Of a DNA stretch of 64,000 nt, positions 5,594-50,349 are shown in pieces (the stretch's first letter is position 1; every line of letters starts with the position of its first letter). This DNA is from Povalibacter uvarum (GTDB taxonomy: Bacteria > Pseudomonadota > Gammaproteobacteria > Steroidobacterales > Steroidobacteraceae): positions 124,001 to 188,000 of the forward strand of contig NZ_JACHHZ010000003.1 of assembly GCF_014202975.1 (NCBI RefSeq). The letters run 5' to 3'. The translations under genes and the position numbers were made by a program. The notes below the pieces were generated by a model. It did not search any database, was not told the origin of the DNA, and was given only the letters and a program-made list of their open reading frames with translations.

Positions 5594-5738
5594 GACAGCA
5601 GCGGTTGGCGGTTGGCGGTCAGCGGTTAGTTCAGAATCGGAAAGGCAGCAGCCGCATGCTGCACGGTCACCGCATTCCACCGGTCGCGAGTTGCATCCCT
5701 CTTTCTCGCCAACCGCCAACCGCTAACCGCTTCCTCCT
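5594..5738. repeat. Word-repeat intergenic linker with inverted ends
   Basis: The left side repeats GCGGTTGGCGGTTGGCGGTC and the right side carries the complement (CGCCAACCGCCAACCGCTAACC), so a transcript could fold into a long imperfect hairpin. It fills the whole gap between the ferredoxin reductase and tesB. tesB has no Shine-Dalgarno just upstream of its ATG; instead CCTCC precedes it. Confidence 0.75.
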
Positions 5739-13142: not shown

Positions 13143-13203
13143 CTTCCGGAGGCGACAGCCGATCCGGCTATCCGCCATCCGCTATCCGCCATCTCCTTCC
13201 TCT
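13143..13203. repeat. Word-repeat intergenic linker
   Basis: Tandem variants of CCGCTATCCGCCATC (CCGGCTATCCGCCATCCGCT and following) fill the gap between the cysB stop and the start region of the ABC exporter gene. Confidence 0.65.
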
Positions 13204-43815: not shown

Positions 43816-45399
43816 CTAGCGGCTCAGCCCTTCCACTCCGCCTCGCAACGAATACGCCCTCGCAAACCCCTGTGCCCGTAGATGCTCTGCGGCCGCCTTG
43901 CTGCGTGCGCCACGGGCGCAGATCAGCAGGTACTTTTCTTCGGGATCGAGCGCACTCGAGTCCGCGAGCAGCACGGCCAGGGGAATGTGCTGCGCCGCCT
44001 GCGGAATCGGGGCATCGCGCACTTCGCGCAGCTCGCGGACGTCGATGAGCGAATATCCGTTCACTGTTGCCGGGGTGAGTTCGTGAAGCGCGACTTCGAG
44101 GTCGGCTGGGGGCACTTCGATCGATCTCGAGGCGTCATGAACGCACGCACTGCGTCGAGACGTCTTCAGCTTCCGCTGTTCGAGCGTCAGCAGATCGATC
44201 AACAGCATCTCGTTGCGTAACTGGCCCGGCAGGTTGAGCAACAGCTTCAGGGCTTCGAGCGCCTGCAGCGTTCCGAGCACACCGGGCACGGGCCCGAGAA
44301 CGCCGGCTTCGGCGCAGTTGCCGACGATCCCGTCGCGAGTTGCGTCAGGCCAGAGGCAGCGCAGGCATGCGCCATCCGCGTCCGGCCGATACACCTGCAG
44401 CTGGCCCTCGTACTGGTAAACGCTCGCGAAGATCGCCGGCTTCGACGTTTTCACGGCGGCATCGTTCACGAGGAACTTCGTGGCGAAGTTGTCGCTGCAT
44501 TCGATGACGAGGTCATAGTTCGAGAGCAGGGCGACCGCGTTGTTCGCGCCGATGCGCTCATGCGTATGCACGTGCACGTCGGGATTGAGCTCGTTCAGTC
44601 GCCGCGCGGCGAGTTGTGCCTTCGGCAGACCGACGTCATCGATAGCGTAGAGCGGCTGGCGGTGAAGGTTGCTGGCAGCCAGCATGTCGGATTCCGCAAT
44701 GCCGATCGTACCGATGCCTGCTCCGGCGAGATAGTTGAGTACTGGAACACCGAGGCCGCCTGCACCGATGACGAGGACGCGCGCGGCTCGGAGCTTTTCC
44801 TGGCCGGCGGCGCCGACTTCGCGCAGCGTGATCTGGCGGGAGTAGTCCGGAGAGGCGTGAGGCTTGAGGCGTGAGGCATGAGCCAGAGAAGACGGGGCTG
44901 TGTCTTCTTTCCCGTTCTGGCTCGAGCCTCGAGCCTCGAGCCTCGAGCCCTCATGCTCATGCTCATGTGCATGGTCCGCGCACCGCTCGCAGTTCACCCA
45001 GCCCGAGTCCCCATTGACGTAGTGCTCCTTCTTCCAGATCGGCACGCGATGCTTCACTTCGTCGATGATGAAGCGGCAGGCGGCGAAGGCTTCGGCACGA
45101 TGGCGTGAGCTGACGCCTACCCACACGGCCATGTCGCCGATCTCGAGCGATCCGACACGATGCACGCAGGCGGCATTGATCACGCCGAAGCGGCGGATGG
45201 CTTCGGCGACGATGCGTTCGCCTTCCTTGTTGGCGAGGGCTTCGAACGCTTCGTATTCCAGTCGCGTGACGGCCAGCCCTTCGTTGTGGTTTCGCACCCA
45301 GCCTTCGAAGGACGCATAGCCGCCGGCAGCCGGATCGGCGAGCGCTTCGCGATACCGATCGACGGTGAGTGCCGTGTTGCTGAAAGAGAAGGGCTTCAT
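43816..45399 (-). CDS. MoaE-MoeB-rhodanese triple fusion (molybdopterin synthase large subunit plus MoaD-activating enzyme)
   Basis: 527 residues from the ATG at 45399. Residues 1-140: MoaE, with 'GYASFEGWVRNHNEG' and the catalytic Lys region 'RVPIWKKEHYVNGDSGWVN'. Residues 141-186: a His/Glu- and Ser-rich linker encoded by repeat DNA. Residues 187-430: ThiF/MoeB E1-like adenylyltransferase ('ARVLVIGAGGLGVPVLNYLA', 'ASNLHRQPLY', zinc pair 'CLRC' at 345-348; the second zinc pair is reduced to one Cys, C419). Residues 435-527: rhodanese with active Cys494 in 'LLICARGARSKAA'. It should adenylate and perhaps sulfurate the MoaD domain encoded by the gene before it, and form molybdopterin synthase with it. 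Overlaps that gene by four bases (ATGA). Confidence 0.9.
   Translation of the reverse strand: MKPFSFSNTALTVDRYREALADPAAGGYASFEGWVRNHNEGLAVTRLEYEAFEALANKEGERIVAEAIRRFGVINAACVHRVGSLEIGDMAVWVGVSSRHRAEAFAACRFIIDEVKHRVPIWKKEHYVNGDSGWVNCERCADHAHEHEHEGSRLEARGSSQNGKEDTAPSSLAHASRLKPHASPDYSRQITLREVGAAGQEKLRAARVLVIGAGGLGVPVLNYLAGAGIGTIGIAESDMLAASNLHRQPLYAIDDVGLPKAQLAARRLNELNPDVHVHTHERIGANNAVALLSNYDLVIECSDNFATKFLVNDAAVKTSKPAIFASVYQYEGQLQVYRPDADGACLRCLWPDATRDGIVGNCAEAGVLGPVPGVLGTLQALEALKLLLNLPGQLRNEMLLIDLLTLEQRKLKTSRRSACVHDASRSIEVPPADLEVALHELTPATVNGYSLIDVRELREVRDAPIPQAAQHIPLAVLLADSSALDPEEKYLLICARGARSKAAAEHLRAQGFARAYSLRGGVEGLSR
44853..44955. repeat. Word-repeat DNA inside the MoaE-MoeB fusion gene
   Basis: GGCGTGAGGCTTGAGGCGTG on one side and a fourfold CTCGAGC(CT) run, then CTCATGCTCATGCTCATG, on the other. 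It codes for the interdomain linker, residues about 143-183. The style equals the intergenic linkers at 11263, 13143 and 46745. Confidence 0.7.
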
Positions 45400-46253
45400 C
45401 CGCCTGCAACCGGTGGAATGAACACAATGGTGTCGCCGTTCTTCAGGCGCGCATCCCAACCCGAGAATTCATCGTTGATCGCGACCTTCAGCTGTTCGCG
45501 CGTGAGCTTGAACGGATAGCGTGACTGAAGCTCACGGTACAGATCGCCAGGCGTCGCGGCCGGCGTATCGAGCGTCTCTTCGCTGCGGCCGGCCTGTTCG
45601 CGGAACAGCGCGAAATACTGCACGCGCAGCGATCTGCTCTCACCTGCGGGTGCGGTGCGTTCCGGGCTCGCGCCATGCAGCGTCTTGCTGGCTGCGTCGA
45701 ACTCGTCGGTTGTATTGATGTTGTCCAGCGCACTGGCCTGCGGAAGGTCGAGCAGCAGCGTGTTCGCATTGATGAGGAACTTGCGCGGGCACTGCTTGCC
45801 GGCGTCCACGTACGCCTGCAATGGTTCTCGAGCTGCAGGTTCCCAGATCGCGCATAAGGGTTCAGGAAGGGAATCGTGCGCGCTGCGATACGCCGTGGCG
45901 ATCCGGTTCGGATCGCGATGAGCGATGAGCTGCTCAAGCGTCTCGCGGGTCAGGAACGGAAGATCGCAGGCCACGATGAGCCATGCAGCTTTCGGGTGCT
46001 GCGCAAGCGCGGCAGAGATGCCGGCGATGGGGCCGATGCCGGGCTGGCGATCGACGACCTGCGGAAACGCTGCGCGAGTAGTCTCATCGCGTTGATCCGG
46101 CCGCACCGACACGAAGGTGGCCGCGCAGACATCAGAGACAAGTTCGTATGTCCATTGAAGTTGCGACTTGCCGTGGTACGTGAGCGCAGCCTTGTCGCGC
46201 TTCATCCGCGTGCTGGCACCGCCAGCGAGAATCAGGCCGAAGAGAGCGCTCAT
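45396..46253 (-). CDS. MobA-MoaD fusion (Mo-cofactor guanylyltransferase plus molybdopterin synthase small subunit)
   Basis: 285 residues from the ATG at 46253. Residues 1-190: MobA, nucleotidyltransferase motif '[18 protein letters not shown]' (the usual Gly after RM is Lys here), '[12 protein letters not shown]' and '[12 protein letters not shown]'. Residues 208-285: MoaD, ubiquitin-like ('[20 protein letters not shown]', 'VAINDEF', '[13 protein letters not shown]') with the C-terminal Gly-Gly exposed as required for thiocarboxylation. MobA adds GMP to Mo-molybdopterin; MoaD carries sulfur for molybdopterin synthase. The join is in one frame without stop over a linker of about 17 residues. 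It overlaps moaC upstream and the MoaE fusion downstream by four bases each. Confidence 0.9.
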
Positions 46254-46741
46254 CGCTCCTCCGCGTCCGCTGCGTTGAACGGGCCGCTGCGTCCGCCGGA
46301 CTTCTCGACGAGCTTGGTGCTGCGGATCTCGATGCTGTGCGACAAAGCCTTGCACATGTCGTAGATCGTGAGTGCCGCGACGCTCGCGCCGGTGAGCGCC
46401 TCCATTTCGACACCCGTCTTGTGATGCAGCGACACGGTGCAACGAATCAGCGCATCGTCGCCATCCATCTCGATATGCACCTTGCAGTTCTCGATACCGA
46501 GCGGATGACAGAACGGAATCAGTTCATGAGTCCGCTTCGCCGCCATCACACCCGCAATGATCGCCGTCTGAAACACAGGCCCCTTCGCCGTGTTGAATCC
46601 CTGCGCCCGCAACGCGTTGGCCACTTCAGCCGGGAATCGCACGCGCGACTCCGCAACCGCCATACGCTTGGTAACGGATTTGTCGCCCACGTCGACCATG
46701 GTCGGAAGGTTGGCGGAATCGATGTGGGAGAAGGAGGGCAT
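46250..46741 (-). CDS. moaC: Cyclic pyranopterin monophosphate synthase
   Basis: 163 residues, normal for MoaC. Conserved: '[20 protein letters not shown]', '[17 protein letters not shown]', '[20 protein letters not shown]' and '[16 protein letters not shown]'. It converts the MoaA product to cyclic pyranopterin monophosphate in the first stage of Mo-cofactor synthesis. The ATGA overlap couples it to mobA-moaD. A word-repeat linker of about 120 bases separates it from moaA upstream. Confidence 0.96.
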
Positions 46742-46871: not shown

Positions 46872-47927
46872 TCAGCCGCCGATGTAGTACATCTCAATCT
46901 TCCGCAACGGCTGCTCTCCCGCGTGCAGCGAGGCGCGCATTTCGCTGTAGCGATCGCCGCGGTTCTGCCAGGTATTCGAGATCAGATCGCGCAGTTCGTC
47001 GTCGCTTGCGCCTGCGCGCAACGGTGCGCGCAGGTCGGTGCCCTGGGTTGCGAACAGGCATGTATAGAACACGCCTTCGGAGGAGAGGCGTGCACGTGTG
47101 CAGGCGCCGCAGAACGGATTCGTGACGGAAGAGATGAAGCCGATTTCGCCGCCGCCGTCGTCGAACGCGTAACGCTCGGCGACTTCGCCGTGATAGTTCT
47201 CCTCGACGGGATGCAGCGGCCACCGTGCGCCGATGCGATCGACGAGCTCGCGTGACGACACGACTCGCTCGAGGCTCCAGTGATTGCGGTTGCCCACATC
47301 CATGTACTCGATGAAGCGGACGATCACGGGCGTGTTGCGGAAACGTTCGACGAGATCGAGCACCGTGTGGTCGTTGAGCCCGCGCTGCACGACGGCGTTG
47401 ATCTTGATCGGCGTGAGTCCGGCATCGAGTGCGGCCTGGATGCCTTCGAGCACGCGATCGCGCTCGGCAAAGCCGCCGCTCATCTGGCGAAAGATCTCCG
47501 GGTCGATCGAGTCGAGGCTGACAGTGATGCGATGCAGGCCGTTGGCCTTCAGTTCGGCAGCATGCTGCGCGAGCAGCACTGCATTGGTCGTGAGAGCGAC
47601 GTCCTGCACCCCTTCGATCGCTGTGAGATCGCCGACCAGTTCCGACAGGCTCGGCCGCAGCAGCGGCTCACCGCCCGTGAGACGGACTTTCTTCACGCCG
47701 AGATCGACGAAGAGTCGCGTGAGCCGAGTGATTTCCTCGAACGACAGGCGCTCGCTCGACTTGAGAAACCGGTAGTGCTCGTGGAATGTTTCCTTCGGCA
47801 TGCAGTACGGGCAACGGAAGTTGCACCGGTCCATCACCGAAATGCGCAGGTCGTGCAGAGGCCGGCCCAGCGTGTCGCGCGGGCGGGGAACGACAGGCAG
47901 TTTGCGGACGTCGGCCATGCTCACCAC
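46872..47927 (-). CDS. moaA: GTP 3',8-cyclase (radical SAM)
   Basis: 351 residues. Radical-SAM motif 'CNFRCPYC' near residue 35, 'VRLTGGEPLLRPSLSELV', the second 4Fe-4S site with 'NPFCGACTRARLSSEGVFYTC', and the conserved C-terminal Gly-Gly ('MYYIGG'). It rearranges GTP to 3',8-cyclo-dihydro-GTP, the first step of Mo-cofactor synthesis. It overlaps moeA by seven bases when started at 47927; the ATG three codons later at 47918 would leave two bases. Same strand as the other moa/mob/moe genes. Confidence 0.96.
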   Translation of the reverse strand: MVSMADVRKLPVVPRPRDTLGRPLHDLRISVMDRCNFRCPYCMPKETFHEHYRFLKSSERLSFEEITRLTRLFVDLGVKKVRLTGGEPLLRPSLSELVGDLTAIEGVQDVALTTNAVLLAQHAAELKANGLHRITVSLDSIDPEIFRQMSGGFAERDRVLEGIQAALDAGLTPIKINAVVQRGLNDHTVLDLVERFRNTPVIVRFIEYMDVGNRNHWSLERVVSSRELVDRIGARWPLHPVEENYHGEVAERYAFDDGGGEIGFISSVTNPFCGACTRARLSSEGVFYTCLFATQGTDLRAPLRAGASDDELRDLISNTWQNRGDRYSEMRASLHAGEQPLRKIEMYYIGG

Positions 47928-49120
47928 CGATAAAGGGGCACGGCGGTGCCGCGTCCTACAGTGACCGGCCCCGCCGGCAGTTCGACGAACCCGTCAGTGC
48001 CGATCAGCGAGGTGAAATCGCCCGAGCCTTTCGTCGGGCGCAGATGCGCGCGACGTTCTCCGGTCGCGTCAGCGACGATTTCCACCGGGATGAAGACTGT
48101 CAGCGCGGGTTTCACGTCGAAAGCGTCTGCGAGTGCGATTTTCTCGGGCTCCGCGGGGGCTTCGCCCAAAGCGGCCGTTAATCCCGGATAGACATAGCGC
48201 ATCAGGCATACCAGTGTCGATACCGGATTGCCTGGCAGAGCGTAAACGGTCCGTCGCTGACCCCCGGATTCCCCTACGCCGAACCACATCGGCTTGCCGG
48301 GCTTCTGCGCAATCTTGTGGAAGACCTGGCGGATGCCAAGCTCCGTCAGGACCTGCGGGACGAAGTCGAATTTTCCCATCGAAACGCCGCCGCTCAGGAT
48401 CAGCACGTCGTGCGTATCGAGATGGGCGCGCAGCCGCTCGCGCAGCACATCGAGATCGTCCGGGATGTGATCGTGAGCGAGGAACATCTGGCCGCGGCGC
48501 TGCAGCGCCGCTAGGACGCCGTACGCATTCGAGCGATAGATCTGCACATCGTTCGCGGGCTCACCGGGCTCTACGAGCTCGTCGCCGGTCGAGATCACGA
48601 TGATTCGTGGGCAGCGGCTCACCTGCGCGCGTGACAGCCCGGCCGAAGCAATTACTGCGACTTCGGGCGGACCGAGCCGTACACCAGGCTCCAGCAACAC
48701 GTCGCCGGCGCGAGAATCGAGTCCACGCGGGTGGATGTTCATTCCCGGCGTCGCGACGACATCGTCGGCGAGTTTCGCCACACCCTCTTTGACCGCAATG
48801 CGCTCGACGGGAACGACGCAGTCGCAGCCGGTGGGCACGACAGCTCCCGTCATGACCTCGAAACAAGCGTCGGTGCTGGCCAGCACCATGCGATGGCCGC
48901 CCGCGGCCTGCGTGCCGGCGATCCGGAATTCACGGCGCCCCGAGTCGCTGGCGAATGCGATGCCATCCATCGTGACGCGATCGAACGGCGGCTGGTCGCG
49001 GGAAGCGGCGATCGGTTCGCGCAGAACGGCGCCGGTCAGATGCACCAGGTCGTGCGATTCGGGCTCCAGGAGCCCTGCATGGGCGCGGATCGCGGCTTCG
49101 GCTTCGGAAGGGGAGATCAT
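47921..49120 (-). CDS. moeA: Molybdopterin molybdenumtransferase
   Basis: 399 residues. Motifs: 'PPFDRVTMDGIAFA', 'VMTGAVVPTGCDCVVPVERI', 'IVISTGDELVEPGEPANDVQ', 'VLILSGGVSMGKFDFVPQVL' and 'VYALPGNPVSTLVCLMRYV'. It inserts molybdate into adenylated molybdopterin. First gene of the five-gene minus-strand Moco operon. No Shine-Dalgarno; CACAAT lies six bases upstream of the ATG and could be a weak -10 of a leaderless mRNA. Confidence 0.94.
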   Translation of the reverse strand: MISPSEAEAAIRAHAGLLEPESHDLVHLTGAVLREPIAASRDQPPFDRVTMDGIAFASDSGRREFRIAGTQAAGGHRMVLASTDACFEVMTGAVVPTGCDCVVPVERIAVKEGVAKLADDVVATPGMNIHPRGLDSRAGDVLLEPGVRLGPPEVAVIASAGLSRAQVSRCPRIIVISTGDELVEPGEPANDVQIYRSNAYGVLAALQRRGQMFLAHDHIPDDLDVLRERLRAHLDTHDVLILSGGVSMGKFDFVPQVLTELGIRQVFHKIAQKPGKPMWFGVGESGGQRRTVYALPGNPVSTLVCLMRYVYPGLTAALGEAPAEPEKIALADAFDVKPALTVFIPVEIVADATGERRAHLRPTKGSGDFTSLIGTDGFVELPAGPVTVGRGTAVPLYRW

Positions 49121-49295: not shown

Positions 49296-49646
49296 TCAGC
49301 CGCGCGCCTTGAACACGCGAACCTGCTCGTTGAACTCCTTGGCCTTGCTCTGCAGTTCTTCGACAGCTGCGTTGAGCTTCTTGGACTGCATCGTCTTGAG
49401 CTGCATCAGCTGGGCAGAGCCCGCGGCCTTGGCCTTGGTCTCGTCATCCAGGCACGAACCGAACGCCTTCACTTCGGCGTCGTAGGCCTTGAACGCGTTC
49501 ATCGCGCCGACCATCTCGGCTTCCGTGGCGGTGGCGCCGTTCGGGATGCTGGCCGGAGCCTTCGGGTAGGAGCAGTCGGCATGGGCCGAGAGCGACAGCG
49601 AGGCGAGGGCGAGGGCGGCGGCGAGCTTGAGCTGAATCCGTTTCAT
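49296..49646 (-). CDS. Small periplasmic helical protein, paralogue 1 of 3
   Basis: 116 residues from the ATG at 49646. Signal peptide ending 'SAHA', then a short chain starting 'DCSYPKAPASIPNGATATEA' and a helical region with 'MNAFKAYDAEVKAFGSCLDD' and 'LNAAVEELQSKAKEFNEQVR'. Two cysteines (after the signal and in 'GSCLD') are conserved in all three copies and may form a disulfide. I do not know an assigned function. It is third and last in a minus-strand tandem with 49849 and 50406. Confidence 0.75.
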   Translation of the reverse strand: MKRIQLKLAAALALASLSLSAHADCSYPKAPASIPNGATATEAEMVGAMNAFKAYDAEVKAFGSCLDDETKAKAAGSAQLMQLKTMQSKKLNAAVEELQSKAKEFNEQVRVFKARG

Positions 49647-49812
49647 CGAAAAAGTCTCCACTGTGGATACGCTTGGGAACCGTGGCGGATCGCCTGGGCG
49701 ATCGCGCCGGACGGGCAAGGAAATCGGCAGGGAAACGACCGACTTAACGGCCAGGAGCGTCGGGATTTGTGCAGGTGCGACGAGCGTCGCAATGTGCAGC
49801 CGCGGCTTTCAG

Positions 49813-49848: not shown

Positions 49849-50193
49849 TTATCCGCGTGCCTTGAAGATACGGACCTGTTCGTTGAACAGCTTGGCCTTG
49901 GCCTGCAGTTCCTCGACGGCCGCATTCAGCTTCTTCGTCTTCATCGTCTTCAGCTGCATCATCTGGGCGCTGCCGGCTTTGGCATTCACTTCGTCGTCCA
50001 GGCAGTTGCCGAAGGCAGTGACTTCTTCGTTGTAGGCCTTGAACGCGTTCATCGCGGAGACCATTTCGGCCTCGCTCGCGGTCTTGCCATCAGGGATCGC
50101 GTCCGGCGCCTTGGGAAACGCGCAATCGGCCTGGGCGGCGAACCCGAAGGCCAGCGAAAGGACGGCGACCGCAGTCGTCAGTGAGGTTTTCAT
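49849..50193 (-). CDS. Small periplasmic helical protein, paralogue 2 of 3
   Basis: 114 residues from the ATG at 50193. Signal peptide ending 'FAAQA', mature start 'DCAFPKAPDAIPDGKTASEA', then 'MNAFKAYNEEVTAFGNCLDD' and 'LNAAVEELQAKAKLFNEQVR', ending 'FKARG' like paralogue 1. Clearly the closest relative of paralogue 1. It has its own terminator and about 200 bases to each neighbour, so it is probably expressed as a single gene. Function unknown. Confidence 0.75.
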   Translation of the reverse strand: MKTSLTTAVAVLSLAFGFAAQADCAFPKAPDAIPDGKTASEAEMVSAMNAFKAYNEEVTAFGNCLDDEVNAKAGSAQMMQLKTMKTKKLNAAVEELQAKAKLFNEQVRIFKARG

Positions 50194-50349
50194 CGTTTCG
50201 AGTTCTCTTGCGGATGTCGGACTCTTCCCGGAATTCTCCGGGGGCTTCGGTCCGGGCATCGGCAAGGGCGCCCCGGTCTTGAGGCGCGGAACGGCGCGTT
50301 TTTCACATAAGCGCGACCGGATTCATCGAATCGTGAAGGGGTGCGCAAA

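Follow-up and report, generated by a model that had tools for sequence, protein, structure and literature searches.

Two fusion genes, mobA-moaD and moaE-moeB-rhodanese, in a molybdenum cofactor operon of Povalibacter uvarum

Introduction

The molybdenum cofactor (Moco) operon of Povalibacter uvarum raises the question of what follows when proteins of one pathway are joined in pairs. In the window analysed here (the whole stretch of 64,000 nucleotides from contig NZ_JACHHZ010000003.1, within which all positions are counted unless another sequence is named) MoaD is attached to MobA, and MoaE to MoeB and a rhodanese domain. An earlier note, made from the letters of this DNA, read these fusions as implying a metabolon in which MobA and molybdopterin synthase are held together. 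We ask here whether the fusions are real, whether they are the copies that do the work, where else they occur, and whether they call for such an assembly.

Results and Discussion

Two fusion genes in a Moco operon

On the minus strand the genes are ordered moeA-moaA-moaC-mobA/moaD-moaE/moeB/rhd, a Moco operon (Table 1). All five domains of the two fusion proteins score above their Pfam cut-offs, which bears out the domain calls and fusion boundaries first proposed for them. The MoaE-MoeB-rhodanese protein matches MoaE (PF02391; 1.1e-35, 122.6 bits against a cut-off of 23.4), ThiF/MoeB (PF00899; 3.8e-71, 239.4 bits) and rhodanese (PF00581; 1.4e-07), and the MobA-MoaD protein matches the MobA-like NTP_transf_3 family (PF12804; 1.5e-34) and ThiS/MoaD (PF02597; 4.1e-16, 59.7 bits against a cut-off of 22.5). 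Among the NCBIfam models, MoaD scores 62.8 bits with TIGR01682, just below the cut-off of 66.15, and MobA, MoaE and MoeB fall below the equivalog cut-offs. The MobA domain appears to be of the MobA rather than the MocA type: it scores 95.3 bits with TIGR02665 against 47.4 with TIGR03310, both below cut-off, and its matches in the PDB are MobA.

Table 1. Positions in the window of the Moco operon genes, their domains and the features of the linkers.
Feature	Positions	Strand	Basis or remark
moeA	47921-49120	-	Pfam PF03453, PF00994, PF03454
moaA	46872-47927	-	Pfam PF04055, PF06463
moaC	46250-46741	-	Pfam PF01967; stop overlaps mobA start via ATGA
mobA-moaD fusion gene, 285 aa	45396-46253	-	model mean pLDDT 88.9, pTM 0.68
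MobA domain, residues 1-195	45669-46253	-	PF12804 at residues 6-160; MobA-type NCBIfam models and PDB MobA chains best
MobA-MoaD linker, residues 196-207	45633-45668	-	pLDDT <50 at 196-201
MoaD domain, residues 208-285, free C-terminal Gly-Gly	45399-45632	-	PF02597 at residues 211-285; PDB MoaD chains
ATGA overlap of moaD stop and moaE start, 4 bases	45396-45399	-	sequence
moaE-moeB-rhodanese fusion gene, 527 aa, start codon at 45399	43816-45399	-	model mean pLDDT 84.9, pTM 0.66
MoaE domain, residues 1-136, PIWKKE stretch	44992-45399	-	PF02391; aligned to MoaE of solved MPT synthases
MoaE-MoeB linker, residues 137-185	44845-44991	-	pLDDT <50
CERC (CxxC), start of MoaE tail	44980-44991	-	CERCA opens 61/72 intact fused linkers
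HAHEHEH, what remains of a His-rich stretch	44953-44973	-	relatives likewise His-rich
Inverted repeat, 7-bp-periodic arms 44852-44882 and 44921-44949	44850-44951	.	in frame, later part of linker
MoeB/ThiF-type adenylyltransferase domain, residues 186-420	44140-44844	-	PF00899; invariant motifs
Rhodanese domain, residues 450-526, CARGARS loop	43822-44052	-	PF00581

The motifs expected of the MoaE, MoeB and rhodanese domains are largely in place. In alignment A1, residues W122, K123, K124 and E125 of MoaE are invariant; this WKKE lysine stretch is part of the MoaE active site. Also invariant are GxGGLG, NLHR-Q, K260, C345 and C348 of MoeB, and C494, G497, R499 and S500 of the rhodanese, whose loop pattern was matched in 65 of 71 fused relatives. 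MoeB/ThiF E1 enzymes typically carry two CxxC zinc pairs. Here the first pair, CLRC, is intact and the second is down to one Cys; among the 71 fused sequences the second pair reads CxxC in 5, C-x(3-5)-C in 35, one Cys in 28 and none in 3. PDB relatives of the MoaE-MoeB-rhodanese protein include Uba4.

The mobA-moaD gene ends GGC GGA TGA, and this TGA overlaps the moaE start codon within ATGA, giving the four-base overlap already noted between the two genes. Both linkers keep the frame open, and neither a stop nor a frameshift, either of which would have spoken against the fusions as first described, is found in them. A palindromic repeat such as occupies one linker is a place where assemblies can fail, but the architecture is common to other assemblies and the frame is unbroken through both linkers, so an assembly or annotation artefact has a negligible probability; an assembly error was rejected because relatives in other assemblies have the same two fusions. 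The two fusion genes, MobA-MoaD and MoaE-MoeB-rhodanese, are thus confirmed. New details are the stop that invariably follows MoaD, the tail of MoaE and the palindrome lying in frame. Elsewhere on the minus strand, 49296-49718 and 49849-50265 encode adjacent small proteins that resemble each other and have signal-like starts; by eye they are a tandem duplication.

Copies in the source genome

The source genome (G000), which is 98.3% complete, gave one match each for PF02391, PF02597 and PF00899. The MobA-MoaD protein as query likewise gave a single match, a search outside which remote MobA kin may remain. Free copies of MoaD, MoaE and MobA, which the earlier note had named as possible workers in place of the fusions, were therefore sought and no second copies found in G000, and the explanation that free duplicates do the work is rejected. 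Three MGD-binding domains are encoded in the genome, so MobA has customers. ThiG was not found in G000 by a search whose control rang in 14 of 14; with neither ThiG nor a second carrier or E1 detected, MoaD and MoeB form the sole carrier/E1 pair seen in the genome, and a role shared with thiamine synthesis is rejected on the absence of ThiG and of a second carrier. Since ThiG and further ThiS- or ThiF-type matches were not found, the thiamine thiazole in this genome may be imported or made another way. As far as the genome shows, the fused genes are the working copies.

Distribution of the fusions

The closest named relatives of G000 are Steroidobacter and metagenome-assembled genomes (MAGs) of the Steroidobacteraceae. 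We compared 60 relatives, comprising 37 genomes of the host family, 35 of them scorable, and 23 from other families of the order. The unscored family genomes were G004, whose contig ends within MoeB, and G007, in which no MoaE row was seen; G006 was scored as MobA-MoaD fused across Ns, and G018 and G012 from contig-end pieces. MoaE and MoeB share one ORF in 18 of the 35 scorable family genomes, and MobA and MoaD in 26. These domain orders depart from the separate genes of most bacteria, as the earlier note had pointed out, and are not rare in this lineage. Both fusions occur in 11 of the 35, MoaE-MoeB only in 7, MobA-MoaD only in 15 and neither in 2, a co-occurrence with a Fisher p of 0.12 and an odds ratio of 0.21. 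In the order's other families MoaE-MoeB was found in 2 of 23 genomes (G039 and G058).

A second set consists of 80 named loci, the best among 462 retrieved using the MoaE-MoeB protein as query, and is for that reason biased to the fused form; it overlaps the 60 relatives (L094, for example, is G002). Here 72 loci have MoaE and MoeB in one intact ORF and 8 have them as split neighbours. MobA and MoaD share an ORF in 50 loci and lie side by side as separate genes in 24; MobA is elsewhere in the locus in 2 and was unseen in 4. Rhodanobacter and Dyella records are among the 80. Across the class, where the best 4-6 candidates per genome were scored in 369 genomes, just two genomes among the matches listed have a complete MoaE-MoeB-rhodanese (G000 and G027) and just two a complete MobA-MoaD (G000 and G013). 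From these comparisons the fusions look like a lineage trait, not a one-off.

In another order, at G099:C13:1713894-1715386, a MoeB-rhodanese match comes immediately after MoaE, in the same orientation, a possible unfused forerunner. Among matches in the open-access PMC literature no title or abstract opening describes the two fusions, four hyphenated fusion names gave no match there, and the fusions are not described in excerpts of PMC6147048, PMC1779556, PMC4326299, PMC11237513 and PMC9370521.

The junction between MoaD and MoaE

Three junctions, mobA|moaD, moaE|moeB and moeB|rhd, are erased in this operon, and moaD|moaE is open. The free Gly-Gly end ascribed to MoaD is found here and throughout the 80 loci, which were selected without regard to MoaD: Gly-Gly is followed by an immediate stop in 80/80, and MoaD and MoaE share an ORF in 0/80. 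MoaD would need its free carboxylate in order to be charged, and this would be the reason for keeping the junction. Known MoaD-MoaE fusions need cleavage after Gly-Gly, according to excerpts of PMC4326299. Read from sequence, the invariant Gly-Gly-stop is the clearest functional statement that these genes make: the fusions would show which boundaries between pathway genes can be lost, and the one boundary retained would mark where the chemistry requires a free carboxylate.

Origin of the fused MoeB

In a MoeB tree, which excluded fused_G018 and the split neighbours, a 100/100 branch separates 27 fused from 19 free rows; in the trees the contig-end MoeB of G004 is labelled fused, its link to MoaE being unseen. 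With the eight split-neighbour loci included (L105, L116, L123, L124, L132, L140, L160 and L161), these eight group in a single clade (100/99) that falls with the fused type. In each of them the MoaE tail runs into a stop codon, with an in-frame start codon no more than a few bases further on. This pattern fits one fusion followed by one later split, in a direction that the tree leaves unproven, and a single origin is possible.

Within the host genus (n = 14), counting MoeB matches above 200 bits, 2 genomes have the fused form only (G000 and G002), 11 the free form only and 1 both (G004). G004 has three matches above 200 bits, and G002, G004 and G006 also have weaker ones above cut-off. The fused MoeB is a type apart from the free MoeB used by most congeners, and MoaE evidently works either way, fused or with a free MoeB.

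These observations bear on another account of the fusions, in which co-translated neighbours lost their stops where free termini were dispensable, with an outcome that was neutral or stoichiometry-fixing and no special function. The split MoaE/MoeB neighbours (8/80 loci) are consistent with it, as are MobA and MoaD genes that are adjacent yet separate (24/80) and the recurrence of Moco-gene fusions elsewhere (excerpts of PMC11237513). On the other hand the fused form is retained in many genera, and because the eight split neighbours form one clade the changes must have been few. We regard the case for this account as evenly balanced.

The MoaE tail

In this order MoaE often ends in WVNCERCA and a His-rich stretch, whether or not it is fused to MoeB (L053-L173, L220-L239). 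Histidine makes up 18.7% of the 72 intact MoaE-MoeB linkers; 63 of the 72 contain at least 10% His and 61 open with CERCA. Control linkers from the same loci gave 2.6% His for 50 MobA-MoaD linkers (8/50 with at least 10%) and 3.2% for 78 MoeB-rhodanese linkers (4/78). Tails with at least three His are carried by 14 of 16 unfused MoaE in the family and by 7 of 17 in the order's other families, the latter count including G048, whose tail ends without His. The comparison with other orders covered 28 MoaE, chosen as the top-scoring loci from 80 matching genomes and not at random; these have 0-2 His and lack CxxC. Separately, the MobA-MoaD linker of L055 and L057 (G001 and G003) is about 120 residues long and contains tandem repeats such as SPDQAGGNTSHRS.

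A possible though doubtful explanation is that the tail is a metal-handling module for Cu, Zn or Ni at the dithiolene site, and that the fusion is incidental to it. The His content lies above that of both linker controls, the His-rich tail is present on unfused MoaE too, and the 28 MoaE of other orders lack both this tail and CxxC, all of which would suit such a module. In G000 and G002, however, the His stretch is short and the repeat occupies the remainder; G013 and G028 have 0-1 His and L163 has none, seven Rhodanobacteraceae-like linkers are His-rich yet without CxxC, His-Asp/Glu runs can expand by slippage, and the 28 controls were not randomly drawn. The more specific suggestion, that the tail would place a metal such as copper on the newly made dithiolene or protect it in this way, and that fusion simply made the tail a tether, is a long shot. 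Kuper in 2004 reportedly found copper on molybdopterin in plant Cnx1G. If true, the suggestion would offer a testable bacterial answer to where the molybdopterin copper of plant Cnx1G could be added, and the His-rich MoaE tail makes metal handling in cofactor synthesis testable in one small protein. A search of the open-access PMC literature for a His-rich MoaE gave papers unrelated by title.

An inverted repeat within the MoaE-MoeB linker

The inverted repeat of the linker is well above chance, with z of -5.83 and 0/200 shuffles as low. The linker matches 11 other places in G000 at E ≤1e-3, and the window holds a further inverted repeat with 7-bp tandem arms (5599-5732) and an unpaired tract (13165-13194). 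Paired elements numbered 10 in 464 kb of G000, which is no density because 10 of the 20 G000 stretches were chosen on linker matches, 5 in 300 kb of G002, 0 in 100 kb of G022 and 0 in six congeners with one 20-kb stretch each. Unpaired tracts in the same stretches numbered 30, 9, 0 and 1, respectively. Among fused genomes the period-7 scan covered G000, G002 and the 100 kb of G022. In the G000 set, period 7 accounts for 29 tracts, period 9 for 6 and other periods for 0-1; period 9 gave 5 tracts against 2 for period 7 in 80 unselected kb of G000, and 12 against 10 in G002.

In G002, too, the linker carries a paired element at this position, in frame and built on a different heptamer (L206:18383-18490). 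The linker elements of G000 and G002 align in register, the AGGC of each 7-mer being common by eye, and they represent either one insertion with homogenised arms or two insertions at one site. The Moco operon region of G002 contains another repeat with heptamer arms (L207:245-346), placed by eye between moaA and moaC.

Two roles for the repeat were considered and rejected. It did not make the fusion, given that of 21 linkers only those of G000 and G002 look repeat-built by eye. Nor are such repeats generally protein-coding, most frames across them lying, by eye, opposite or beside real genes. The sole match for heptamer repeats in the open-access literature was Beggiatoaceae, and a plasmid search with the linker repeat gave no match.

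How the fused proteins would work

We consider it highly probable that two pairs of adjacent genes have been joined in an otherwise ordinary Moco operon, and that the products act like their separate counterparts, flexibly tethered. By the chemistry of these families, the MoeB domain would adenylate the free Gly-Gly carboxylate of MoaD on the MobA-MoaD chain, and the rhodanese persulfide (on Cys494) would give the MoaD thiocarboxylate. The same MoaD end would enter MoaE, where the PIWKKE lysines would act on cPMP to yield molybdopterin, and MobA would later guanylate Mo-MPT. The MoaE-MoeB tether resembles the CxxC and His-rich MoaE tail of the order, with the inverted repeat apparently set in frame partway along it. 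AlphaFold2 models made from family alignments (27 and 34 sequences) predict folded domains and linkers with pLDDT below 50. As the linkers are both low in predicted confidence and variable in sequence, a reading of them as tethers fits better than one of a rigid machine.

The contrasting proposal is a metabolon, a lasting assembly of molybdopterin synthase, its activator and MobA that channels oxygen-sensitive intermediates. Plant enzymes of the pathway assemble in vivo (excerpts of PMC5694649), structures of MoaD with MoaE and with MoeB have been solved (1fm0 and 1jw9), and the two fusion genes overlap. Yet the fusions are not coupled, the 11/7/15/2 division of the 35 family genomes giving a non-significant Fisher test and an odds ratio below 1; the MobA step comes after MoeA, later than MoaD; the linkers are variable and of low confidence; and most congeners use a free MoeB. 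The statement in the earlier note that the fusions imply a metabolon is thus unsupported, and we think such an assembly unlikely. It is not favoured here: as judged from sequence, the two chains would be linked by ordinary MoaD-MoaE and MoaD-MoeB contacts and by nothing more.

Comparison with known systems

Several known proteins share part of this organisation. In MoeBR, MoeZR, Cnx5, MOCS3 and Uba4, MoeB is followed by rhodanese as it is here; unlike them, the present protein has an N-terminal MoaE and belongs to a group in which the second zinc CxxC is mostly altered, and its MoeB type is distinct from the free MoeB-rhodanese found in congeners. The MoaD-MoeB and MoaD-MoeBR proteins of Archaea and a few bacteria also place an E1 and a sulfur-transfer partner on one chain, according to excerpts of PMC11237513, but there it is the carrier MoaD that is joined to MoeB and here the catalytic subunit MoaE. 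MobA-MobB and MoaC-MobA (NF011059 and NF011070), the top-scoring models on the MobA part, are two-domain Moco proteins with MobA, whereas the partner in this case is a C-terminal MoaD with its Gly-Gly free.

The linker repeat recalls the Rickettsia palindromic elements, palindromes of ~100-150 bp lying in frame within protein genes (excerpts of PMC10969869). It differs in that its arms are 7-bp tandem arrays whose heptamers differ between the two species seen, and in that other copies here lie, by eye, mostly outside real genes.

The MoaX or MoaD-MoaE fusions of Mycobacterium tuberculosis and of some Archaea and bacteria are likewise Moco sulfur-transfer fusions that draw on the MoaD and MoaE families. 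In these, as excerpts of PMC4326299 describe them, MoaD comes first on a single chain that is cut after Gly-Gly; in the loci compared here the place of that cut is taken by a stop codon, in 80 of 80.
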